From a virus, in the IMG/VR virus record IMGVR_UViG_3300012189_000005, positions 1 through 43,572 of that record: a stretch of 43,572 nt of DNA. One strand, given 5' to 3'. The first letter of the stretch is position 1. Each line of letters opens with the position of its first letter. The translations under genes and the position numbers were made by a program. The notes under the pieces are model-generated. The model saw nothing but the letters and a program-made list of their open reading frames with translations, made no database searches and was not told the origin of the DNA. Of the stretch, positions 4,152 through 43,572 are shown one piece after another.

Positions 4152-4447
4152 TTTTTTACGAAGTTCCAGGTAACCTTATCGTGATATTCAGGTTTAGTGG
4201 GGTTCCCGTTTCTGTCTACCATAAAATAACTGATGCAAATTTTTTCTATGATACTAAGATGTTTCCGAATGTAATCATCCGGAGTAGATTCGTTCCGCCA
4301 GTTAAGATACACATGTTTTATGTTAGTACAGAGCATCTCTTGCTTCTCAGTAGGCTCCTGTTGATTATTCAGGATGCGCCAGATAGCCTCACCCTCTTCC
4401 GCAGGTACAGTCTTCGATCCCCCGTCGATTAAGGTCAGGTAGGCCAT
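4130..4447 (-). CDS. hypothetical protein (105 aa)
   Basis: Starts at the ATG at 4447, overlapping the upstream stop by one base (TGATG), so translation is coupled. Soluble and mixed charged, with a C-terminal KPEYHDKVTWNFVKKWNIPW. Always read with the 4447-4917 gene. I do not recognise a family. Confidence 0.65.
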   Translation of the reverse strand: MAYLTLIDGGSKTVPAEEGEAIWRILNNQQEPTEKQEMLCTNIKHVYLNWRNESTPDDYIRKHLSIIEKICISYFMVDRNGNPTKPEYHDKVTWNFVKKWNIPWR

Positions 4448-4917
4448 CAGGTACCGAGTTCTTTCTTGATGAGGGTAGTAAATAGTGCGGAAGGGTTTCG
4501 TCCACGCTCAAGCGCATACTCTAGATGGCGAGTCAGCACCGGCTCAGGCAGCCGCCACGCGGCGTAGCAATACCATTTAAGAGCTACGGGGTTGTTTAGT
4601 TTGGTAACGAGGTAGTGCGCGACCCTATCCACTTCGTCTGCGCTGACGTTCAAAAGTGGCGTAGTCATACAGTATTCATTGTTCATTGTTTCATTGGAAG
4701 CTAAAGCTTTGCTCTTCATTGTCCATTGTTCATTGTCCATTGAAGCTCTAGACCGGTAGTTTGGAAAATCCACTTGACTTATCCGTTCTACCCAAGGTAC
4801 AATGGGTATGTTGTAGACATCCCCGAGGTAACACTTGGGGTTTTTCTTATATGCTAAAAGTTCGACTGACGATTTGGCCGTGTACTTTGGTTTTATCGTG
4901 GGCATTGTTGTAGACAA
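4447..4917 (-). CDS. hypothetical protein (156 aa) with in-frame CAATG repeats
   Basis: Residues 1-50 include PKCYLGDVYNIPIVPWVERI. Residues 58-80 (SMDNEQWTMKSKALASNETM) are encoded by short direct repeats of CATTGT[C/T]. The C-terminal half is helical (SADEVDRVAHYLVTKLNN, then LEYALERGRNPSALFTTLIK) and resembles the end of replication-accessory proteins, but I cannot name it. The start used is a TTG at 4917 after AAGAG; an ATG at 4905 is possible. It follows the terminator at 4958-4987. Confidence 0.6.
   Translation of the reverse strand: MSTTMPTIKPKYTAKSSVELLAYKKNPKCYLGDVYNIPIVPWVERISQVDFPNYRSRASMDNEQWTMKSKALASNETMNNEYCMTTPLLNVSADEVDRVAHYLVTKLNNPVALKWYCYAAWRLPEPVLTRHLEYALERGRNPSALFTTLIKKELGT
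4674..4745. repeat. short CATTGT[C/T] direct repeats
   Basis: Two clusters of CATTGT or CATTGTC units (4674-4696 and 4714-4745) flank a GGAAGCTAAAGC segment. They lie in frame inside the 4447-4917 gene and look like an inserted low-complexity stretch. Confidence 0.7.
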
Positions 4918-5952: not shown

Positions 5953-6159
5953 ATGAATACAGCTAGCACTGGTGCGCTTTCAGCTAAGTTTGTAAAGCGT
6001 GTAAACCTTACGAAGTATTCTCTCCAGCGCGTAGAGCATGAGGACGGCACCCCAGGTCAGGTATATGAAATGGTTATCCCCCTAGGCGAGAAGTACAACG
6101 CTAAGCTCTACGCTACGGCTGAAGCGGTAAAAGAATCAGGGTATTTTAGTGAACAATAA
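5953..6159 (+). CDS. hypothetical protein (68 aa), probably leaderless
   Basis: Small soluble protein; its middle (LQRVEHEDGTPGQVYEMVIP) looks like a beta-hairpin. The ATG lies 7 bases after a good -10 box, and no Shine-Dalgarno is present. First gene of the rightward arm, directly before the Acb2-like gene, so possibly an early counter-defence gene. No family recognised. Confidence 0.65.
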   Translation: MNTASTGALSAKFVKRVNLTKYSLQRVEHEDGTPGQVYEMVIPLGEKYNAKLYATAEAVKESGYFSEQ

Positions 6160-6172
6160 TCAAGGAGTTACT

Positions 6173-6439
6173 ATGGACAACGCAAACGAACAAACCAACA
6201 ACCCACCATTAAGCTTTGGCCAAAAGGCTGTGGGGCTTACATTTAATCCCTCTAATGGCACTGAAATTGGTGATCATGTGCAGACTATTAAGCAGCAATG
6301 TGCTGATGTTATCGATACTCTCAATAATTTACGCAATAACACCGAAGATGGTGAGCAAAAGCGTATGTACTCGGTTGCAATTACAGAATTACAGACAGCC
6401 CAAATGTGGGGCGTGAAAGCTGTTACATGGGCGAGCTAA
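6173..6439 (+). CDS. Acb2/Tad1-like hairpin protein, candidate anti-CBASS sponge
   Basis: 88 residues from the ATG at 6173, chosen because AAGGAG lies six bases upstream. The core SFGQKAVGLTFNPSNG, then an IKQQCADVIDTLNNLRN helix and the ending SVAITELQTAQMWGVKAVTW, match what I recall of the Acb2/Tad1 helical-hairpin family. Characterised members bind cyclic nucleotide signals and blind CBASS or Thoeris defence. Which signal this one binds, if any, is not visible. Its position at the head of the early rightward genes fits an anti-defence role. Confidence 0.6.
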   Translation: MDNANEQTNNPPLSFGQKAVGLTFNPSNGTEIGDHVQTIKQQCADVIDTLNNLRNNTEDGEQKRMYSVAITELQTAQMWGVKAVTWAS

Positions 6440-6553
6440 TTGAAGTATTGGGATACATTTGACAGTGTTAAGACTGTTGATCGTGCGCCAGAATGGGACG
6501 GCCACACCCCCACAGATGTGGTGCAACGTCTGCTTGATTGGAGAGTACAGTGA
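6440..6553 (+). CDS. small hypothetical protein (37 aa)
   Basis: TTG start directly after the stop of the Acb2-like gene; sequence KYWDTFDSVKTVDRAPEWDG continuing to RLLDWRVQ. Its TGA overlaps the GTG of the next gene. The composition looks protein-like (many Trp and Asp); function unknown. Confidence 0.45.
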   Translation: MKYWDTFDSVKTVDRAPEWDGHTPTDVVQRLLDWRVQ

Positions 6554-6870
6554 ACCAACCTGAACAGGCATTTTATACGCCACCTAAGTCAAAGACAGTG
6601 CTACCCACAAATGCAGAGATGGCTGCTTGGAATAAAGCTATAGACCGTCAATATATGGGTGTTGGGGGTTTCTGTGGCTATTGTGGTGAAGCTTGTAGGC
6701 CATTCTTTAGAAGTCTGCCCCAAGAGTTAAGAGACACGGCCTGTGAGTACAACGGTAGTCATCCAGATTGCGGCGATCACAATATGGTATTTAAAGAAAA
6801 GACGCCGGAAGTGTTTGGAGCATATGAGATATATGAATGTACTAAATGCAAGATTCAAGAGAGTTATTAG
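6550..6870 (+). CDS. cysteine-rich protein, probable zinc binder (106 aa)
   Basis: GTG start with GGAG seven bases upstream, overlapping the previous stop. Cys pairs occur as GGFCGYCGEAC (about 44-50) and YECTKCK at the C-terminus, with C and H residues between (ACEYNGSHPDCGDHN). This suggests one or two zinc ribbons. It could bind nucleic acid or protein; no family named. Confidence 0.6.
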   Translation: MNQPEQAFYTPPKSKTVLPTNAEMAAWNKAIDRQYMGVGGFCGYCGEACRPFFRSLPQELRDTACEYNGSHPDCGDHNMVFKEKTPEVFGAYEIYECTKCKIQESY

Positions 6871-6959
6871 TATGATTAACATTAGTTCTTCAGGTGCCGC
6901 GTAAAGTGTTAATACGAATACACACAGTGGATATGTAGTTATCAACTATACTGAGGAAT

Positions 6960-7424
6960 ATGAATTCCACTATAACAATTAGCAAGAGAAAACAAGGTAA
7001 GCAGCTTGTAAACGCGGAGAGAACTGTATTAATAAGTAAGTTGGTAGATGCACTTTGTAATGGTTATCAAAGTACAACAGCACTAGCTAATCTGTTAAAA
7101 GTAGATCGAAGTACAATAGATGCATACAGACCATTAGCTGATGAGTTAATTGGGAAGATGAAATTAGACAGGAATGTTATTAGGAATCTCCAGGTACAGA
7201 GGTTATTTCGTCTGGTAGAAGGCTTGATGGACGACCTTAAAACTGAAACTGATAAGAAGTACAAACTGATCATTCATGACAAGATAGCGAAGTACTGTAG
7301 TCTTTTGGCCTCTGTTACCGGCATTAACCAGGAGTTCACCCCAACAGATGAGAAAGGCACACGATTAGTCATTGTACGGGCTAAGGAGAGTACGCCGGTT
7401 GAGGGGGAGATTGTGCCTAGCTAA
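6960..7424 (+). CDS. HTH protein, candidate small terminase subunit
   Basis: 154 residues. An N-terminal helix-turn-helix (STTALANLLKVDRSTIDAY), a central helical region (LFRLVEGLMDDLKTETDKKY) and LLASVTGIN before a disordered tail. The domain order and size match phage small terminase subunits, which bind the packaging site and recruit TerL. However, it lies 8 kb from TerL, so a plain regulator remains possible. A TATACT sits seven bases before the ATG, with GAGGA between. Confidence 0.45.
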   Translation: MNSTITISKRKQGKQLVNAERTVLISKLVDALCNGYQSTTALANLLKVDRSTIDAYRPLADELIGKMKLDRNVIRNLQVQRLFRLVEGLMDDLKTETDKKYKLIIHDKIAKYCSLLASVTGINQEFTPTDEKGTRLVIVRAKESTPVEGEIVPS

Positions 7425-7545
7425 CAGGGGTAAGGCTAAACATGTCATTCCGTTAGGCCGTAATAAGCGGGTTGGCAAGTACTGTGGGCGCAAATGTAGG
7501 GATGCGGCGTACTATTACAGGCGCTCTGTGAGCAACGTACGATAG
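7411..7545 (+). CDS. small zinc-motif protein (44 aa)
   Basis: TTG start overlapping the end of the HTH gene, after GGGGGAG. Contains KYCGRKCRDAAYYYRR, the C-x3-C plus Arg helix seen in small zinc proteins that read YCSxxCRxxAxRxR. The 8026-8439 protein has the same motif. Likely DNA-binding; partners unknown. Confidence 0.5.
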   Translation: MCLANRGKAKHVIPLGRNKRVGKYCGRKCRDAAYYYRRSVSNVR

Positions 7546-7965
7546 TCTAGGATCGCTTGTAAGAGATTGAGTGGCGTTGGGGACCGCACTGAGCTAATGT
7601 GTACAGTCGCACATTACCCATTTTACGACAGCGTTAACAGGGGTGATAGCCATACACATCAGCATGGTACACATGGCACACCATATATAGCGTGTCAAAG
7701 GCCTTAACCCATGTGCCCCCACCTATCCATGCATGCTCATCTGTTATGTAGGTACACACAGCAGACGATTGGCGATGGCGATTGAAACGGTATAACCCCT
7801 TTGCGGTGGAGCGGTGCGTCAAAACCTTATCGGGTAGGGTTTCTTTCGGGTGCGCGTGGGTGTCACCACCAACATAAACCCCTCAGATTTTCGTTATCTA
7901 ACAGAGGTAATCGTCCATAATGAACAGCCTTCCCCTTAAAAATTCAGGAGCCTAGAATATACACT
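7546..7965. other. 420-bp stretch without a confident gene
   Basis: No rightward frame with a ribosome site is present. A leftward frame at 7634-7822 is listed separately as doubtful. Short inverted repeats occur (aatgtg/cacatt near 7592-7611, gccat/atggc near 7647-7675) but I cannot tie them to a function. It ends at the octamer-bearing promoter. Confidence 0.4.
7634..7822 (-). CDS. doubtful leftward protein (62 aa)
   Basis: TTG start with AAGG four bases upstream; sequence KGLYRFNRHRQSSAVCTYIT, then AWIGGGTWVKAFDTLYMVCH. The composition is plausible, but it lies against the direction of its neighbours and has no promoter I can see. Confidence 0.3.
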   Translation of the reverse strand: MTHRSTAKGLYRFNRHRQSSAVCTYITDEHAWIGGGTWVKAFDTLYMVCHVYHADVYGYHPC

Positions 7966-8246
7966 ACCGTATCTTGACATTGATCCGTATCACCTATATA
8001 ATCCGTATCATAAAGAAAGGAAATTATGACTGATACGGTAAAAAATGATACGGTCGATGATACGGTAAAGTGTCTAAATTGCGGAAAGAAATTAACAGAG
8101 AGATCCCAGAGAGCAAAATTCTGTTCTGATGCCTGCAAGTTGAAATTTAACCGTATCAAAAAGCAAGGATTTACCGTATCACCCACCTCTGTAGGGGATG
8201 CCGAAAACACGGGTTTATACGAATCCAATGATACGGTTGATACGGT
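7966..8246. repeat. ten copies of octamer GATACGGW
   Basis: The octamer GATACGGT (or complement ACCGTATC / TCCGTATC) starts at 7966, 7984, 8002, 8032, 8047, 8059, 8150, 8173, 8230 and 8239. The first three are spaced exactly 18 bp and overlie the promoter. The other seven lie inside the following coding sequence, in both orientations. Likely operators or iterons. Confidence 0.85.
7974..8002 (+). promoter_or_regulatory. rightward promoter with embedded octamers
   Basis: TTGACA (7974-7979), 17-bp spacer, TATAAT (7997-8002): a consensus sigma-70 type promoter. One octamer lies upstream of the -35 box, one in the spacer and one from the end of the -10 box over the start site, so a protein bound there would block it. 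Confidence 0.85.
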
Positions 8247-8439
8247 CACTGCTACAGACCAACTTTTCATTGACGATGCTGCGAAGCGCGGTTTGGTGAA
8301 TTGGTATAACTTTAGCAAGGAGCTTTACGAACGAAAGTGCATTTGGGATGAAAAGTTATTTAGTACACACTTGAAATTAAACAAATACTGTTCGCCGGAG
8401 TGCCGGAATAATAATTCTAAGCCATTAAAAGGAGAGTAA
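8026..8439 (+). CDS. zinc-motif protein encoded by an octamer-bearing gene
   Basis: 137 residues; AAAGGA six bases before the ATG. Residues 20-50 hold CLNCGKKLTERSQRAKFCSD then ACKLKFNR, a four-Cys zinc ribbon with a basic helix; a second YCSPECRNNN site lies near the C-terminus after an isolated Cys (RKCIWDEKLF). DTV repeats at both ends of the first half are the translation of the GATACGGT octamers. A DNA-binding autoregulator or origin-binding protein is the natural inference. I know of similar small zinc proteins with TV-rich repeats in mobile elements, but not a proven function. Confidence 0.65.
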   Translation: MTDTVKNDTVDDTVKCLNCGKKLTERSQRAKFCSDACKLKFNRIKKQGFTVSPTSVGDAENTGLYESNDTVDTVTATDQLFIDDAAKRGLVNWYNFSKELYERKCIWDEKLFSTHLKLNKYCSPECRNNNSKPLKGE

Positions 8440-8499: not shown

Positions 8500-8886
8500 A
8501 TGACTGACAAAGAATACGCCGAACAGAAGAAACGCATTGAAACAGTCTTTAATGCCTGGTTCTATGAGCTACAATTGAATCTCTGGGATATAGATCAGCG
8601 TTTCCTGCGGGACGTAGACGAGGAAAACCCTACCTTTTTAGCGATTACGAACGCTTTATGGCCGTACCGGAGAGTCACCTTTAACTGGTATTTACCAAAC
8701 GTGAGTACGGTGTCTGATAGCCAGCTTGAACTTCATGTAGTACACGAAATGGTACATACGCTGCTTGACCCGCTTCATACACCAGAGACAGATGCAGCGA
8801 AACTTGAGTTTGCAACGCAGTGTGTGGCTCAGTCTCTTTTGTGGACACGCAAAAACAAAAAGGCTCCTCTCGCAAGGAAGCCTTAA
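8500..8886 (+). CDS. small zinc metallopeptidase-like protein
   Basis: 128 residues. The helix LELHVVHEMVHTLLDPL contains HExxH, the zinc and catalytic motif of gluzincin/SprT-type peptidases; a candidate third ligand is an acidic residue in the following PETDAAKLEFATQC helix. No signal peptide, so cytoplasmic. Phages carry such short HExxH proteins with unknown substrates. The ATG follows the micro-gene stop by two bases. Confidence 0.65.
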   Translation: MTDKEYAEQKKRIETVFNAWFYELQLNLWDIDQRFLRDVDEENPTFLAITNALWPYRRVTFNWYLPNVSTVSDSQLELHVVHEMVHTLLDPLHTPETDAAKLEFATQCVAQSLLWTRKNKKAPLARKP

Positions 8887-14767: not shown

Positions 14768-15304
14768 ATGGGCACAGAACAGATTATAACAAAGGCGGTT
14801 CCGGGGTACGAGGGGCTGTATGAGATTGACACTATAGGTAGAGTTTGGAGTTTACGATACCCTCACGTTAGAGAGCGAAAACGACTGAAGGGAAATTGCG
14901 ATACCAAAGGGTATGTACAAGTTGTTTTAATAAAAGATAGAATACGTAGAACGCGTCCAGTACATTGTATTGTTGCTGAGATTTTTATTCCTAACCCGTT
15001 AGGTAAGCCACAAGTGAACCACAAGGATGGGGTTAAGACTAACAATTGTCTCAATAATTTAGAGTGGATGACAAATGCTGAAAATATGCAGCATAGTTAC
15101 ACGATTTTAGGTAGAGAGCATCTAAAAGGTTCCGATAATGGTGCTTCTAAATTAACTGAGGATCAGGTCATTAGTATTTGGAATTACAAGGGCAAAAAGA
15201 CATTAAGGCAGATCTCAAGACAGTATAATGTGACCATGGCTGCCATTTCATTGATACATACAGGTAAAACGTGGGGATGGTTAACAGGCAATTATGGAAT
15301 ATAA
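14768..15304 (+). CDS. NUMOD4-HNH homing endonuclease
   Basis: 178 residues in the usual order: NUMOD4 (VPGYEGLYEIDTIGRVWSLR, residues 11-30), HNH (GKPQVNHKDGVKTNNCLNNL then EWMTNAENMQHS, about 78-112), and a C-terminal helix-turn-helix (LTEDQVISIWNYKGKKTLRQ). It is inserted directly before TerL and overlaps its start by 11 bases. Homing into or beside terminase genes is common in phages. Confidence 0.9.
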   Translation: MGTEQIITKAVPGYEGLYEIDTIGRVWSLRYPHVRERKRLKGNCDTKGYVQVVLIKDRIRRTRPVHCIVAEIFIPNPLGKPQVNHKDGVKTNNCLNNLEWMTNAENMQHSYTILGREHLKGSDNGASKLTEDQVISIWNYKGKKTLRQISRQYNVTMAAISLIHTGKTWGWLTGNYGI

Positions 15305-16862
15305 GATTACATTGTTTGACAAGCAAGAACGGTTCATTTTCTCTGAAAAACCTTTTTCAGCATATTTTGGTGGATTTGGCAATGGGAAAACCATGAGTGG
15401 ATGTATTAAAGCGCATCAGCACTGCCAACAAAAGGATGCTTTTTTTCTTATTGGTAGACGACATGCCACTGATCTCGAAGATTCTACTCTCCGCGATTTT
15501 ATGGAGTTATTTCGTAGTATGGGGAAGTATTCTCCAGGTCGAAAATCTTTTGCATTTTATAAAGATGGTGTGCGCTGGAGTGAAGTTATTTTCAGACACC
15601 TTGATGATATGCAGTCCCTAACTAACATGAACTTGAGTGGTTTTTGGATAGATCAGGCCGAGGAAGTAAGTGAAGATGCGTTTGACTTTTTGCTGGGACG
15701 TATTCGACGTCCAACAGTAGATCGCCGAGAAGGGTTTTTAACGGGGAATCCAGCTGGGCATGATTGGATATGGCGTAGATTTATTAAGAAAAAAAGGAGA
15801 GACGGAAAAATTCTCCCCGATGCTAGCGATTACGAGATGATTGTGGCTAGCACCCTAGAGAATAGAAAGAATTTACCTGAAAGTTACATCCGTGGATTAA
15901 TGAGTCAACCAGATTCCTGGGTAAAACGATTTGTAGAGGGTTCTTTCGATACCTTTTCCGGCCAAATCTTCGACGAATTCAGCCAAGATCTACACGTTAT
16001 TCAGCCTTTCACGGTCCCGAGTGGTTGGGAAAAGATACGTGGTATAGACCACGGACAGTCTGGTGAGCACGCCACCGCATGCTTATGGATGGCTATTGAT
16101 TACAATGGGAACTGTTACGTGTACCAAGAGTACAAAAAATATAATGATATCGTTTCAAATCATGCTCAAATGATTAACAAAATGAGCAAGGTTCGTATTG
16201 AAGGCCAGATACTCGACGATCACTATTCATATACTGTTATCGATCCCTCTACCCACGCTAAGAATAAGGTATCTAAGAACGGCGTAAGTTTTTCAGTGGC
16301 TGATGAGTACCTGGATAGCGGAATTGCTACTATAGGGGCTCAGAATGACGTTATTGCTGGTATAAACCGCGTAAAAGAATACCTCAAGATAGATCCGGAA
16401 CACTACCACCCATTTAAACAGGAAGACGGCGAACCAGTACGTGGTGCTCCTCATCTGTATATTTTCTCCAGTTGTACCGAAACTATAGAGGAGATACAGC
16501 AGTATAAGTGGAAGCAAGCGTTTGGAGTGAGTACGAACTCTGAGGCCGACGATATTAAGGAACGCCCGCGTAAGAAGAATGATCACACGACCGATGTCTT
16601 GAGATACCTAATAGCTTCTCGTCCTCAATCCCCCCAACATATGACCTCAATAGCTCCGTGGGTCTTCCAGAATCCCATAGAGCTTGCCAGACGCGCTCAG
16701 AGCATGGGCTTGACTGTAGATGACCTCATGGCCCAAAGATACGGCAATACGAGCCTCAGACACTCTACAAGTGGTATATCGCACTCAGGGGGTATCTCTC
16801 ATTCAAATAGTAGCCAATGGCGTTCCTCCGGAACTAGCGTCGGGCATCAGACTGGACTATAG
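15294..16862 (+). CDS. terL: terminase large subunit
   Basis: ATP-driven DNA packaging motor and headful or site nuclease. Near residue 26 AYFGGFGNGKTMSGC is the Walker-A-like loop; SGFWIDQAEEVSED at about 115-128 is Walker B with the catalytic Glu. The nuclease half begins at IRGIDHGQSGEHATACLWMA (about 247) and includes YTVIDPST. 522 residues is normal. The last 35 residues are a Ser/His/Gly-rich tail. It starts inside the end of the HNH gene and has no strong ribosome site, so expression may be coupled to it. Confidence 0.93.
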   Translation: MEYKITLFDKQERFIFSEKPFSAYFGGFGNGKTMSGCIKAHQHCQQKDAFFLIGRRHATDLEDSTLRDFMELFRSMGKYSPGRKSFAFYKDGVRWSEVIFRHLDDMQSLTNMNLSGFWIDQAEEVSEDAFDFLLGRIRRPTVDRREGFLTGNPAGHDWIWRRFIKKKRRDGKILPDASDYEMIVASTLENRKNLPESYIRGLMSQPDSWVKRFVEGSFDTFSGQIFDEFSQDLHVIQPFTVPSGWEKIRGIDHGQSGEHATACLWMAIDYNGNCYVYQEYKKYNDIVSNHAQMINKMSKVRIEGQILDDHYSYTVIDPSTHAKNKVSKNGVSFSVADEYLDSGIATIGAQNDVIAGINRVKEYLKIDPEHYHPFKQEDGEPVRGAPHLYIFSSCTETIEEIQQYKWKQAFGVSTNSEADDIKERPRKKNDHTTDVLRYLIASRPQSPQHMTSIAPWVFQNPIELARRAQSMGLTVDDLMAQRYGNTSLRHSTSGISHSGGISHSNSSQWRSSGTSVGHQTGL

Positions 16863-17197: not shown

Positions 17198-17517
17198 TCG
17201 AGGCTATTTTAATAGTTGGAACTATTATAGCTGTCGTGTTGATCGCGTGTCTTGTTTTTTTAGTCTTGCAGTATAGTGAATCTCGTAAGACAAATATTTT
17301 GCTCATTAAGGATAGTACGCAGGCTTATCTTGATGCTATTCAAGGGCAGAAGACTAAAAAACCAGTTCTCTCGCCTACCCGAAACGGTGTACCAATTCAA
17401 GACAACCGAAAGGTTGAGATTGATAAGTCAGACGGCACTAACTTGCTTGAAATGGATCCCGAAGAAGCATATCAGGCTATTATGGGTACAATGGGTGTAG
17501 TTGAGGATAAGAAATAA
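17194..17517 (+). CDS. single-span membrane protein (107 aa)
   Basis: Residues 4-26 (AILIVGTIIAVVLIACLVFL) form one membrane segment; the remainder is a charged cytoplasmic tail ending EEAYQAIMGTMGVVEDKK. It abuts TerL and portal genes with overlaps at both ends (ATGA upstream, TAATG downstream). A membrane protein in a packaging operon is uncommon; the role is unknown. Confidence 0.65.
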   Translation: MIEAILIVGTIIAVVLIACLVFLVLQYSESRKTNILLIKDSTQAYLDAIQGQKTKKPVLSPTRNGVPIQDNRKVEIDKSDGTNLLEMDPEEAYQAIMGTMGVVEDKK

Positions 17518-20024
17518 TGCCTAATTTATTCGACAAGTTCCGTAACCAATCCCCCGAGGATAAGGCAAAAGAGGCTGCGGAGGCGACAATTATTGAGGAT
17601 ACCGGGCGTGTCTGGAAATACCTCTATGAATCCCGGCGTCGGCGTGAGTTCGAGTGGTTTGTGAATGATCAGTTCTACAACAATAACCAATATCTTCGCT
17701 ACAACATCGGTGCTCGACGCGTGGAAACCGATTCGCTCGACAAGTATCGTGACAAAGTGACGATTAATATTTGTAAACAACAAGTACGCGGTATTAACAA
17801 CTTTCTAAATGCTGAGCATCCAACAGTAGGGATTCGTCCCGGAGACCAGGCAGATGACGCCTATTTGCGTGCTCGCAAAGAAAAGCACCAGGCTGATTAT
17901 TGGTACGACGTCCTACGGATGAATGAGGAATGTAAGCTTATTACTCTTGATGGCTGTAAATATGGCGTTGGCTGGGCCAAGATTGCCTGGGATAACGATG
18001 CTATTTATCCAACAAAACCGTTCACGCTGAACAATGGAGATACCCAGGATCACTTATATGGTGAGGTGACATTTGAGCGCACCGACCCATTTGAGGTATA
18101 CCCTGACCCGTTGGCCCGTTCCAAGAACAAACAACGCTATATGGCGCATGCTGTAGTTAGGACAGTCGCTGAGATTGAAAATAACGAGAACTACAGTAAC
18201 CGTGATAAGGTGTCACCGGATCAACGATTAGCCGCCTCATACTTAAAACAATTCCAAATTCGTCAGAATCTTGCGGGAGCGCAGTTTTTTGGAACCGGAC
18301 AAAAACAAGGAATGGACACTGTTTTAGCCATTGAGTTATACCAAAAAGTGTTCAATAAAGAAAAGAATAAGTGGGAAGTATGGATGACGACCCGAACTGA
18401 ACACGGAGTTCTGCTCCGTCACCAGCTCTGGCCGATGGATGAGTTTCCGTTTGAGTACTTTCAGACTGAACCGGCACCGTTTATCATGGACTCCAAGGGA
18501 GTTATTCATGATATTCGTGAGCCAAACCGCGCATTGAATCAGATTGTTTCTCAACTGCAGGAGAGCGCCCGTATTATGGGGAAACTGAACTGGCGCGTTC
18601 CGCGTGGTTCCAACCTAAATGTTATCGACGACTCTACCGGCCAGCTTCTTGAGTATGACGTAACACCTGGCGGCATTCCCGAGCCAGTTAGTCCTGGGAA
18701 CCTTCCGAGTTACCTTATGCAACTCCCGAATATGTATGTGAACTTTATGCAGGACATTGGTGGTATGCACGCCGGGTTTAACGGTAAAGCTCCGTTCGCT
18801 CAGGCTTCTGGTGATTTAGTTGACGAGTTAAGTGTTGGCGACCAAAACAACCTTACAATTTACAGAGATAACTACGATGACTTCCTGCGTCGTAGCTTCA
18901 AGTTGATGTTTAAAACCGCTAAAGTCAACTACAAGGGAACTCGTATCGTGCCTTCTGTTACTGCCGATGAGTTTGGTGAATATAATTCTGAAGAGATTAG
19001 GCCTGACGATATCTCTACAAGTGATGATGTACTTGTTTCTACTGGTACAGCGATGCCTTACTCAATTCCTCAGAAGCAACAGATGTACATGAATCTCTGG
19101 AAAGAGAAAGTCATCACTGATCCAAATGTACTCTTAAAACTTATCCAAATGCCCGATCTCGATAACCTTATCGGGGACGACGAACAGGACATCTCTCGTC
19201 AATTAGATGAGATTCGGGCAATGATCCAAGGGAAAGACCCGGCAGACCCGAAAAACGGTCTTACACCACTCATTGCTGAGAACCATTCAGTACATATCCA
19301 GACGATAGACAAATTCGTAAAGGGCGAGAAGTTCAAAAAGCTGTCCCCTGAGATTCAGCAGCACATCATGGATCACCGCGCTGCTCATATTGATTTCTCA
19401 ATCCAACTTCAAAAGATAGCCCAGGCTATGCAGATGGAGCCAATTAAACGTTCTATTACAACGATGATTCGTCCGACTAATCTTAACGAGTTAACGCCAA
19501 TAGAACGGGTGCAGTTTTTCGGCCCGATGGGCGTCCAGTCTGATGCTGCCCAGGTACAACTTCGTGGTGGTCTGTACATTCAAGATCCAGCCCAAGCCGA
19601 GATGCAAGCGCAAAATGAGGACATTGAAATGCTTGGTATGCGTCAGGTGCAGGTAGGACTCGGAGATAATCACCAGGTGCATATCGAGACACATTCTCAA
19701 GTTGTTGACCACCCGAATTTTGCTAAACAACCACTTGTCGTGCAGAATCTTTTTGCTCAGCATATTAAGGATCATTTACAGGCTATGAAAGACATTGTGA
19801 GCGCCCCCGGGCTTGTTCCGAATGATCAGGTAGGTATGCCGAACCAGCCACGAGTGCACCCGCCGCAACCTGGTCAACTTCCTCAGAACCTACAACAAGC
19901 ACAGGATAAGGTGGCTCCAGCGGTTAACACCAAGCCTATGGCTACCATGCCAGGGAGTAAACCGGCTTCTCAGGACATTTTGCGGAAACCCCCAAGAAGT
20001 GTTAAATTGAGGGGGAAGAAATGA
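17517..20024 (+). CDS. portal protein, P22-type
   Basis: 835 residues, the long form typical of P22-like portals. N-terminal EFEWFVNDQFYNNNQYLRYN and VTINICKQQVRGINNFLNAE, then PDQADD-type crown segments, the wing (TDPFEVYPDPLARSKN), and a C-terminal Gln/Pro-rich tail (about 770-835) ending in basic residues. It forms the dodecameric ring at the vertex through which DNA enters and leaves. It follows TerL by two small genes and overlaps the next gene by four bases. Confidence 0.88.
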   Translation: MPNLFDKFRNQSPEDKAKEAAEATIIEDTGRVWKYLYESRRRREFEWFVNDQFYNNNQYLRYNIGARRVETDSLDKYRDKVTINICKQQVRGINNFLNAEHPTVGIRPGDQADDAYLRARKEKHQADYWYDVLRMNEECKLITLDGCKYGVGWAKIAWDNDAIYPTKPFTLNNGDTQDHLYGEVTFERTDPFEVYPDPLARSKNKQRYMAHAVVRTVAEIENNENYSNRDKVSPDQRLAASYLKQFQIRQNLAGAQFFGTGQKQGMDTVLAIELYQKVFNKEKNKWEVWMTTRTEHGVLLRHQLWPMDEFPFEYFQTEPAPFIMDSKGVIHDIREPNRALNQIVSQLQESARIMGKLNWRVPRGSNLNVIDDSTGQLLEYDVTPGGIPEPVSPGNLPSYLMQLPNMYVNFMQDIGGMHAGFNGKAPFAQASGDLVDELSVGDQNNLTIYRDNYDDFLRRSFKLMFKTAKVNYKGTRIVPSVTADEFGEYNSEEIRPDDISTSDDVLVSTGTAMPYSIPQKQQMYMNLWKEKVITDPNVLLKLIQMPDLDNLIGDDEQDISRQLDEIRAMIQGKDPADPKNGLTPLIAENHSVHIQTIDKFVKGEKFKKLSPEIQQHIMDHRAAHIDFSIQLQKIAQAMQMEPIKRSITTMIRPTNLNELTPIERVQFFGPMGVQSDAAQVQLRGGLYIQDPAQAEMQAQNEDIEMLGMRQVQVGLGDNHQVHIETHSQVVDHPNFAKQPLVVQNLFAQHIKDHLQAMKDIVSAPGLVPNDQVGMPNQPRVHPPQPGQLPQNLQQAQDKVAPAVNTKPMATMPGSKPASQDILRKPPRSVKLRGKK

Positions 20025-21349: not shown

Positions 21350-22621
21350 ATGGCTTTTCAAGCTAATCTTTCGAGTGTATCTGCGATGCTTAAGGAAGTT
21401 TATCCTGGTGAGATCGAGGATGAGTTTAACAACGAATGTGCGTTGTGGGCTTTGCTCGACTCTGAAAAGGTACAACTAGCCGAAGGTCAGCACTTAGTGC
21501 GCCCCTTCCGTGTTGGTCGTAACCAGGGTATCGGTTCCCGTAATGATGGCGACTCGTTGCCAGCTAGCGGTCGCCAGTCCTTGCAGCGTGCGCAGATTAA
21601 CATGTCTAGTACTTACTTGGTTGGGAGCATCACCGGTCGTGTTATTCGTAGTTCTTACGATGACCAAGCAGCCTTTGAGAATGCTCTTAGTGAGGAAATT
21701 AAATTTGACCTTACTGATATGGCTACCGAAGTATGTTTCCAGTTGTATGGCCTTCAGGGTCAGCGTACGACTGTCAACGGTAACGTAGTGGCAAGCACGA
21801 GTGTTGTGGTAAACAGTACTCAATATCTTGCTCCGAATATGTACGTTGAGTTCTGGAATGGTGCAAGCAACCAGACGGTGAATGATGCAGGTTTGACCAA
21901 TGGCCAAACTGGCACGTTAATTACTGCTGTGAACAACACCACTAACACGGTTACCGTGACTACCGCTCAGACTATTACTTCTGGTGCCGGTGTGTCGCGT
22001 GCTGGGAACAACACCGCACAGGTGACGACTAAAGAAGCGGTCGGCTTGGACTTCATGCTAGACGACGGTACGGATTATTCCAGTATCGCTAACTATTTCG
22101 GTGTAAGCCGTGTGACCTATCCGATTCTGTATGGCAACCGCTTTAACGCGGCAGGCACCACAACTGAGAACCTGATGCAACGCGCCTTTGACGCTGCTCG
22201 TCAGATCGGTGGTGGCATAATCGACGTCATCACGACAGACTACGCATCTCGTCGGGTGTACTCGAACTTGCTCACCTCGAACAAGCGCTATCCGGTTGAG
22301 GGCATTAATGCTCCCGAATTTGCTGGTGGTATTAAGGTCTCCAAAGACTTGCGTACCCAGCTTGGCGAAGGTTTGAGCTTTAGCGGTGCGATGGTGTTGC
22401 CGTCTCGCTTGGCTCCGCCTGCTAAGATGTTTGGTCTGGATACTAAGAGTTTCCACTTGTACCAGCAATCTGACATCGAATGGATCATGAACGGTGATTC
22501 TGTACTGCACCCGTTGTTGGCAGCCAACAACACGGATGCGTATGAGTTCTCGCTGTTCTATGACTTCCAGGTCTACGATGAAAAACCTAATTCGGGATTT
22601 AAGATTGTTAACACATTTTAG
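21350..22621 (+). CDS. major capsid protein (HK97 fold)
   Basis: 423 residues. N-arm LSSVSAMLKEVYPGEIEDEF, an E-loop region (PFRVGRNQGIGSRNDGDSLP), a long-helix segment (FENALSEEIKFDLTDMATEV) and the P-domain end (WIMNGDSVLHPLLAANNTDA then FSLFYDFQVYDEKPNS). Residues 145-225 (Thr/Val/Asn-rich) look like an insertion domain exposed on the capsid. GGAG precedes the ATG, and a strong terminator follows the stop. Confidence 0.88.
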   Translation: MAFQANLSSVSAMLKEVYPGEIEDEFNNECALWALLDSEKVQLAEGQHLVRPFRVGRNQGIGSRNDGDSLPASGRQSLQRAQINMSSTYLVGSITGRVIRSSYDDQAAFENALSEEIKFDLTDMATEVCFQLYGLQGQRTTVNGNVVASTSVVVNSTQYLAPNMYVEFWNGASNQTVNDAGLTNGQTGTLITAVNNTTNTVTVTTAQTITSGAGVSRAGNNTAQVTTKEAVGLDFMLDDGTDYSSIANYFGVSRVTYPILYGNRFNAAGTTTENLMQRAFDAARQIGGGIIDVITTDYASRRVYSNLLTSNKRYPVEGINAPEFAGGIKVSKDLRTQLGEGLSFSGAMVLPSRLAPPAKMFGLDTKSFHLYQQSDIEWIMNGDSVLHPLLAANNTDAYEFSLFYDFQVYDEKPNSGFKIVNTF

Positions 22622-23377: not shown

Positions 23378-23659
23378 ATGCAAACAATCCAACCAGCCGA
23401 AGACTACGCGTTCATCAAGAAAAAAGAGCAAGCTAACAAGGGCAAGAGCAAGAGTGGGCTACTGTACATCCCTGAAACTGCCCAAGAACAACTTAACATC
23501 GCCACGGTTATCAACGTAGGAAGTAACGTCAAATATGAGTTGGATGACGAGATCCTATATAAGCCCTACGCTGTGATCGATGTGAAGGTGAATGACGAAG
23601 CATATCTTATGGTTAACAAAGAAGATATTATCGGTAAAATTGTAGACGTTGCTAGCTGA
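23378..23659 (+). CDS. GroES-like (Cpn10) co-chaperonin
   Basis: 93 residues with the Cpn10 layout: IQPAEDYAFIKKKEQ start, a mobile loop (NKGKSKSGLLYIPET), the VINVGSNVKYELDDEILYKP core and the end YLMVNKEDIIGKIVDV. By analogy with T4 gp31 and other phage GroES homologues it would cap host GroEL, helping fold the capsid protein encoded just upstream. There is no ribosome site; TATACT lies six bases before the ATG, so it may be leaderless and separately expressed. Confidence 0.85.
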   Translation: MQTIQPAEDYAFIKKKEQANKGKSKSGLLYIPETAQEQLNIATVINVGSNVKYELDDEILYKPYAVIDVKVNDEAYLMVNKEDIIGKIVDVAS

Positions 23660-35471: not shown

Positions 35472-36227
35472 ATGAATGCTATCCAAAAGTTTATAGTAAC
35501 AGATTCTAACTGGGATTCTGGACGTGGAGGGCATATGGTAACTGGTATCGTGTTACATACAATGGTTGGTAACACATCGGGATCACAAGCACGTTTTAAT
35601 GATCCTGCCAGCCAAGTATCTGTCCACTATGGCATAAGTCTTGATGGTAGCATTCACCAATGGGTAGAGGAGGCCGACACTGCTTACCAAGCCGGTAACT
35701 ATACCATTAATCAGACTACAATTGGTATCGAACATTCCGACAATTCAAATCCTAATGACAGTGTTCGTACTCAAGCAGAATACGATAGCTCTTCAGATCT
35801 GGTAGCAGACATCTGTAAACGATACCAAATCCCTTGCGATACTGATCATATCTTTTTACATAAGGATGTTATTGATACTTCAGTCTATCCCGGTGGCACT
35901 GCTTGTCCTGATGGATTAGACACAAATAAGATAATAAGTATGGCGGCAGCAAAACTACAAGGAGACTCTATGTATCCGAACGCGAATGATCTACAGACAA
36001 TCACCAACCAATGTGGTTGGCAAAAAGACCCAGACGGCAAAACAAATCCAAATGCTATTGCGTTTTGGACAACCGGCACAAGTAACCCTGATTGGGGAAA
36101 TCCGCATCTCATACTAGTAAAATTGGCACTCGAGTTGTATTATCAGGGACGAAAAGAGGGCGAAGCCTTGGCAACGGATAATGGGGCTCAAGGTAAGTTG
36201 GATCAAATTAAACAGATAGTAGGATGA
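35472..36227 (+). CDS. endolysin: N-acetylmuramoyl-L-alanine amidase (Amidase_2/PGRP type)
   Basis: 251 residues. Catalytic domain 1-160: zinc His in GIVLHTMVG (about 28), SVHYGISLDGSIHQWVEEAD, TIGIEHSDN and the second zinc site region HKDVI...ACPDGLD with His and Cys/Asp. It cuts the amide bond between muramic acid and the peptide stem. Residues 165-251 (NANDLQTITNQCGWQKDPDG; DWGNPHLILVKLAL) look like a small C-terminal targeting domain. No signal peptide, so it needs the neighbouring holin. Confidence 0.88.
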   Translation: MNAIQKFIVTDSNWDSGRGGHMVTGIVLHTMVGNTSGSQARFNDPASQVSVHYGISLDGSIHQWVEEADTAYQAGNYTINQTTIGIEHSDNSNPNDSVRTQAEYDSSSDLVADICKRYQIPCDTDHIFLHKDVIDTSVYPGGTACPDGLDTNKIISMAAAKLQGDSMYPNANDLQTITNQCGWQKDPDGKTNPNAIAFWTTGTSNPDWGNPHLILVKLALELYYQGRKEGEALATDNGAQGKLDQIKQIVG

Positions 36228-42499: not shown

Positions 42500-43572
42500 T
42501 TATGCTCCTAATCCAGCAAGGAATGCTTTTTTATCCGTATTATGTTTCATAGCCATACAAGCATCAGCATCTTTACCGACTTTGTTTACATAATTAGTAA
42601 CAAATGAAATGTGCTCTTCATTCGTACTTGGGTTGAGATAAAACAAAAAGTATTTATCTTGTTCGTAAATATCTCCAGCCGCAATTTTATACAATCTGTT
42701 AACAACAAGGTTGCCCTTTTTTTCTTTTTCCATGCCTTCAATATAGATATATTTTTTGATTCGTCGGTTAGGAAGATGTTCATAAAACATTTCTTGGCCT
42801 TCATCAATCAACTGAGCTTTCATCTCTTTAATGAATGTTTTACCTTTTAGATATGTCATTGCCATTCGGCGTTGATCCACGTCGGTAATGTTAGCGAGTT
42901 CTTTAGCGGTAAGTGTACCTGATACGATTTTTCTCCATAGCGTTGGGTCTTTATCAAAACGGATACCATGTAAAACATGAAAACCCCATCCGTCTGGCCA
43001 CTCTATAGCTTTTTCGGTATCAGAATGTAGCTGTCCATTTTTATCTCTGTTTATTATTTTTGGCCGATTGCAGACCATAACAAAATCTTTATATGGCCAC
43101 CACCAACAAACGGATTTTGCTATTTGTTGATAACATCTAGCACGTTCAGATATATCTTGAGATAGTTCCAGACTACATATATCCATAAAAAAACTTGTAT
43201 AGCTTGGTGAACCCCAATACCATGAACCTACCCAAAATTGGCCTCCCAATAGGTTATACCATTTAAGATTTTTCATAACGTCACCAACCGCGTCACGAAC
43301 CGCGTCACCAACCGCGCCACCAACCGCGCCACGAACCGCGTCATCAACCGCGCCATCAACCGCGCCATCAACCGCGCCACGAACCGCGTTACCAACCGCG
43401 TCACGAACCGCGCCATCAACCGCGCCACCAACCGCGCCATCAACCGCGCCATCAACCGCGTTACCAACCGCGCCACTAACCGCGTCACGAACCGCGCCAC
43501 GAACCGCGTTACCAACCGCGCCACCAACCGCGCCACCAACCGCGTCACCAACCGCGCCACCAACCGCGTCAC
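42500..43572 (-). CDS. DUF6745-family protein, C-terminal part (continues at 528)
   Basis: The conserved domain begins MKNLKWYNLLGGQFWVGSWY (43276) and includes the hallmark WWWPYKDFVMVCNRPKIINR, LHSDTEKAIEWPDGWGFHVL and a C-terminal DADACMAMKHNTDKKAFLAG. No stop or break separates it from the repeat, which reads [D/G/N/S]AV[G/R/D/S] in the same frame to the window end. The ATG at 43276 lies in the middle of the protein and is not its start. 258 residues of domain plus the array. Function unknown; possibly a host-interaction or defence-related protein by analogy of repeat diversity only. Confidence 0.8.
   Translation of the reverse strand, partial: DAVGGAVGDAVGGAVGGAVGNAVRGAVRDAVSGAVGNAVDGAVDGAVGGAVDGAVRDAVGNAVRGAVDGAVDGAVDDAVRGAVGGAVGDAVRDAVGDVMKNLKWYNLLGGQFWVGSWYWGSPSYTSFFMDICSLELSQDISERARCYQQIAKSVCWWWPYKDFVMVCNRPKIINRDKNGQLHSDTEKAIEWPDGWGFHVLHGIRFDKDPTLWRKIVSGTLTAKELANITDVDQRRMAMTYLKGKTFIKEMKAQLIDEGQEMFYEHLPNRRIKKYIYIEGMEKEKKGNLVVNRLYKIAAGDIYEQDKYFLFYLNPSTNEEHISFVTNYVNKVGKDADACMAMKHNTDKKAFLAGLGA
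43283..43572. repeat. 12-bp tandem repeat, 24 units plus 2 bases (right part of array)
   Basis: Twenty-four units of the same form as at 1-276, then ac. The last 14 bases (accaaccgcgtcac) equal the first 14 bases of the window. The array is broken by the window ends, so its true copy number is unknown. Confidence 0.97.

Follow-up and report, generated by a model that had tools for sequence, protein, structure and literature searches.

An array of ten copies of the octamer GATACGGW lies on both strands at positions 7966–8246 of the window, the whole 43,572-nt (43.6-kb) stretch of DNA analyzed here, which is a tailed-phage contig and a virus record of IMG/VR. The copies are interleaved with a promoter and continue into the gene behind it, and in two related phages an array occupies the same place, with the word differing in each of the three phages. 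The array is probably an operator cluster for a phage-encoded DNA-binding regulator that shuts off the strong promoter of a small-gene cassette, an interpretation that we favor with some reserve.

The octamer occurs 13 times in the window, including three copies in the 43.3 kb outside the array, while shuffled sequences predict about two (1.94). The ten clustered copies start at 7966, 7984, 8002, 8032, 8047, 8059, 8150, 8173, 8230, and 8239, a density of ten per 281 bp with a Poisson probability of ~1e-26, and the best 7-mer cluster in each of 10 Markov-simulated sequences reached 3–5 copies versus ten in the real array. Nine of the ten copies are preceded by T, giving the longer motif TGATACGGW. 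The spacing between copies is irregular, ranging from 9 to 91 bp, and the copies are not contiguous.

Beneath the first three copies is a plus-strand sigma-70 promoter, TTGACA-17-TATAAT (7974–8002), which matches 12 of 12 consensus positions, a match to consensus only. Its −35 element is located at 7974–7979 and its −10 element at 7997–8002, separated by a 17-bp spacer. All three copies are on the minus strand and spaced at exactly 18-bp intervals: copy 1 (7966–7973) ends right before the −35 element, copy 2 (7984–7991) sits inside the spacer, and copy 3 (8002–8009), whose 7-base core begins right after the −10 element, covers the likely transcription start. Several identical sites overlapping promoter elements are one mark of a promoter operator cluster, and this layout recurs in relative G001 and, with the −10 element alone, in relative G002.

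The remaining seven copies are distributed within the first gene of the cassette (8026–8439, plus strand), which encodes a 137-aa protein with two zinc knuckles of the Cys-x2-Cys type. Five are on the plus strand (8032, 8047, 8059, 8230, and 8239) and encode D-T-V, and two are on the minus strand (8150 and 8173) and encode R-I and T-V-S. In 20,000 synonymous recodings of the gene with phage codon usage, the octamer count averaged 0.78 and never exceeded five. Since no recoding reached the seven octamers of the real gene, a constraint acts on the DNA beyond the protein sequence. The first-pass annotation, made from the letters alone, had described ten copies over a promoter and its gene, three of them exactly 18 bp apart on a consensus promoter and seven in the gene in both orientations and different reading frames, and had concluded that the constraint is on DNA; the window count, coordinates, translation, and recoding agree with it throughout. 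Its reading of the array as putative binding sites over a promoter gains strength from two relatives that carry arrays at the corresponding position, while the partition function that it offered as an alternative is disfavored, as discussed below.

The label of zinc-ribbon protein given to the 8026–8439 product holds as far as the paired Cys-x2-Cys knuckles are concerned (CLNC...CSDAC and KYCSPEC), but the library matches, PHROGs included, are weak and fall on the zinc segments of HNH proteins from phages. The product matched no winged-helix or initiator family in Pfam, PHROGs, or NCBIfam, and it has no relative of solved structure. Apart from a zinc knuckle of 33 residues in L002, phages and relatives yielded no close homolog, and the array-bearing relatives carry no homolog of the gene. 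It had been suggested that homologous genes be examined for octamer arrays; no array-bearing homolog was found, L002 itself having no array. A search of viral contigs for the exact octamer together with a zinc ribbon gave chance-like matches, none with more than one octamer. The second cassette gene (8500–8886, plus strand) encodes a 128-aa protein with an HEMVH motif that resembles a zinc metalloprotease site, with no family match in Pfam, PHROGs, or NCBIfam. The cassette proteins of G001 and G002 are unrelated to the 8026–8439 product and likewise matched no family in these libraries; a ribbon-helix-helix reading of them, made by eye, was supported neither by RHH_1 nor by Pfam, PHROGs, and NCBIfam. 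The family libraries revealed no recognized repressor fold in the cassette, and two structure models, with mean pLDDT of 45 and 43, were too poor for use.

The phage belongs to a poorly known group, the nearest isolate terminases being ~30% identical to its large terminase (15294–16862, plus strand). A portal (17517–20024), a major capsid protein (21350–22621), and an endolysin (35472–36227) are also encoded. Upstream of the array, a 154-aa helix-turn-helix (HTH) protein (6960–7424, plus strand) is probably the small terminase subunit, judging from its sequence, with weak Pfam and PHROG matches. The array starts 540 bp downstream of this gene, and the DNA in between (7425–7965) is a conserved non-coding region containing GTCGCACA and GGTATAACCC-N5-CGGTGGAGCGGTGCGTCA, which is common to G001 and weaker in G002 and G006. 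The region, which four related phages have in common and which carries GTCGCACA and CGGTGGAGCGG-type blocks, is a candidate packaging site.

The large terminase was used as the query for finding relatives and retrieved 27 contigs, seven of which share 51–65% identity with it. Homologs of the HTH protein were found in four relatives, G001, G002, G005, and G006, and arrays were found in G001 and G002 at the equivalent place, between the terminase-small-like HTH gene and a small-gene cassette. In G001 (L324), 17 matches to GTACNGTA are all located at 4393–4762 (370 bp) of an 11-kb stretch, where they fill the spacer of a TTGACC-16-TATAAT promoter and run on from the first base past TATAAT. In G002 (L294), 11 copies of TGTATATACA are all located at 6002–7688 (1.7 kb) of a 19.7-kb locus, with one copy starting immediately behind TATAAT, a pair a short way upstream of the HTH gene, and another within a gene further along the cassette; this TATAAT has no good −35 element at the expected spacing. 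In all three phages, the base right after TATAAT starts the local word, namely CCGTATC in the window, GTATATAC in G002, and GTACGGTA in G001. In a search of five records, TTGTATATACA and TGTACNGTAC each turned up in no phage but their own; neither the G001 array word nor that of G002 was found in the window or in the other relative; and the stretches of the relatives examined showed no cluster of GATACGGW. At the equivalent place, G006 lacks an array, a TTGACN-TATAAT promoter, and a rightward cassette alike, which indicates that the three go together; it retains the conserved non-coding element (GGTATTACCC-N5-CGGTGGAGCGG) alone, so the element is independent of them. Searches for further relatives by small-terminase alignment or by the conserved element returned the same phages and one unrelated contig, and the array is known in these three phages only.

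We infer that the effect of the array is repression, because sites on every element of a promoter are its signature. Protein bound at the upstream edge of the −35 element, in the spacer, and at the transcription start would exclude RNA polymerase, since no element of this very strong promoter is left uncovered by the three sites. The seven sites within the initial 240 bp of transcribed sequence may add cooperativity, looping, or an elongation roadblock, and the sites combined could bring about a steep shut-off of the small-gene cassette beside the terminase and packaging region, possibly with spreading of the bound protein. It is a guess that the zinc-ribbon product of the first gene is the regulator and acts on its own gene. 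The arrays of differing words at one spot point to a fast-changing DNA-binding switch, in which regulator and sites may change together; a separate word in every phage lineage is what such joint change would lead one to expect, and the fixed place and changing words would fit a regulator that alters its specificity along with its sites. A more specific proposal, which we put forward as doubtful, is that of a cassette beside the packaging region whose word switches wholly from one related phage to another at an unchanged place and promoter register, and whose small zinc-knuckle product binds the sites in its own gene and possibly spreads along that gene. If the operator interpretation is true, these phages provide a natural series of operator arrays with one layout and different words, and material for studying the joint change of a DNA-binding regulator and its sites. 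They would also show how coding sequence is bent to accommodate operators, and mark a regulated cassette adjoining the terminase genes of phages about which little is known.

Two known systems are the nearest functional parallels. The operators and stoperators of Cluster A mycobacteriophages are short asymmetric sites at promoters and downstream of them that block initiation and elongation with phage-specific specificity (PMC9283540), and the window array resembles them in its short asymmetric sites at and behind a promoter and in its phage-specific word. However, stoperators are ~13 bp long, point along the direction of transcription, and occupy short intergenic gaps all over the genome (PMC9283540), whereas the window sites are packed into 281 bp, face both ways, and extend into a gene. 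The omega heptads of pSM19035, which act as parS and operators, are 7-bp non-palindromic repeats lying in both orientations over promoters and bound by an autoregulator (PMC9499535); the window array also consists of short non-palindromic repeats over a promoter in both orientations, but the heptads are contiguous and serve a ParA, while the array is irregular and no ParA match was found. The array is assigned to neither class because its sites form a cluster of irregular spacing and occur within the gene on either strand.

Iterons and packaging sites, too, usually occur in two orientations and with copies inside genes, a point against the operator interpretation. Known pac and cosB sites are repeats within or beside small-terminase genes, as in P1 pac and lambda cosB, and the probable small-terminase gene and the conserved non-coding element lie directly upstream of the array in all array-bearing phages. 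The array could accordingly be a pac- or cosB-like packaging site bound by the HTH small terminase encoded just upstream, its overlap with the promoter being secondary. We regard this as rather unlikely: the adjoining gene is a weakly assigned small terminase, G006 retains this gene and the conserved element without an array, small terminases 43–48% identical would need to read three different words, and packaging does not require sites so exactly interleaved with promoter elements. Less probable still is a replication origin whose iterons extend into an initiator gene. The origins of lambdoid phages are located within the O gene (PMC7466680), and the window sites share with the lambda O iterons their position within coding sequence (PMC7466680), but they lie over a promoter as well, and the product of the gene is a zinc-ribbon protein, for which Pfam, PHROGs, and NCBIfam gave no winged-helix or initiator match. 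Triplets of GATACGGT do occur in winged-helix phage replication initiator-like genes, at ~11 of 52 overlapped ORFs as judged by eye, far more than in the reversed-octamer control, where the matches listed were repetitive proteins and one initiator-like gene (~1 of 113 ORFs, by eye); across genomes, such triplets are mostly coding tandem repeats. The cumulative GC-skew minimum, at 3–4 kb, is away from the array, and the relatives have arrays but no homolog of the 8026–8439 gene.

Short non-palindromic repeats that cover a promoter and face both ways, similar to the pSM19035 parS heptads (WATCACW; PMC9499535), would also suit a partition site (centromere) for a ribbon-helix-helix or zinc-ribbon ParB-like protein, the alternative named in the first-pass annotation. 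The partition-motor search, which covered PF13614 (AAA_31), found no ParA-type ATPase in the window or five relatives, six records in which the controls matched; the tyrosine integrase family (PF00589) was also without a match in these records with working controls, and RHH_1 was without a match in the window, G001, G002, and G006. With copies that are irregularly spaced and not contiguous as well, a partition role is very improbable. Least probable is that the array is a protein-level repeat or stems from recent duplication of a unit encoding DTV, without any role in DNA binding. Five of the copies do encode D-T-V in frame, and tandem coding repeats are common among the octamer-scan matches, but the spacing is irregular, the flanks differ, and synonymous recoding cannot reach the observed count; this reading is already contradicted by the three non-coding copies and by the two that lie on the opposite strand in other frames.

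Several further observations were made. In unrelated phages (L006, L021, L028, L033, L042, L049, L054, L056, and L141), GATACGGT repeats occur in the linker of winged-helix replication initiator-like proteins; they look like in-gene iterons and in some of these genes are read in several frames. G002 carries 21 predicted tRNA genes (L329:1275–5021), with none in the window or the other relatives scanned. A 12-bp repeat, CGYYACNAACCG, spans both ends of the contig (1–412 and 43163–43562), and its right-end copies lie within the frame of a DUF6745-containing ORF (42500–43570, minus strand). Because the repeat runs over both ends, the genome is probably circular or permuted, with the contig ends falling within a single tandem-repeat gene. 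Pfam matches among the small ORFs of the window include an Acb2/Tad1 hairpin protein, of a family of phage anti-defense nucleotide sponges, and a Cpn10 co-chaperonin; the ORF at 23378–23656 reads like the latter.
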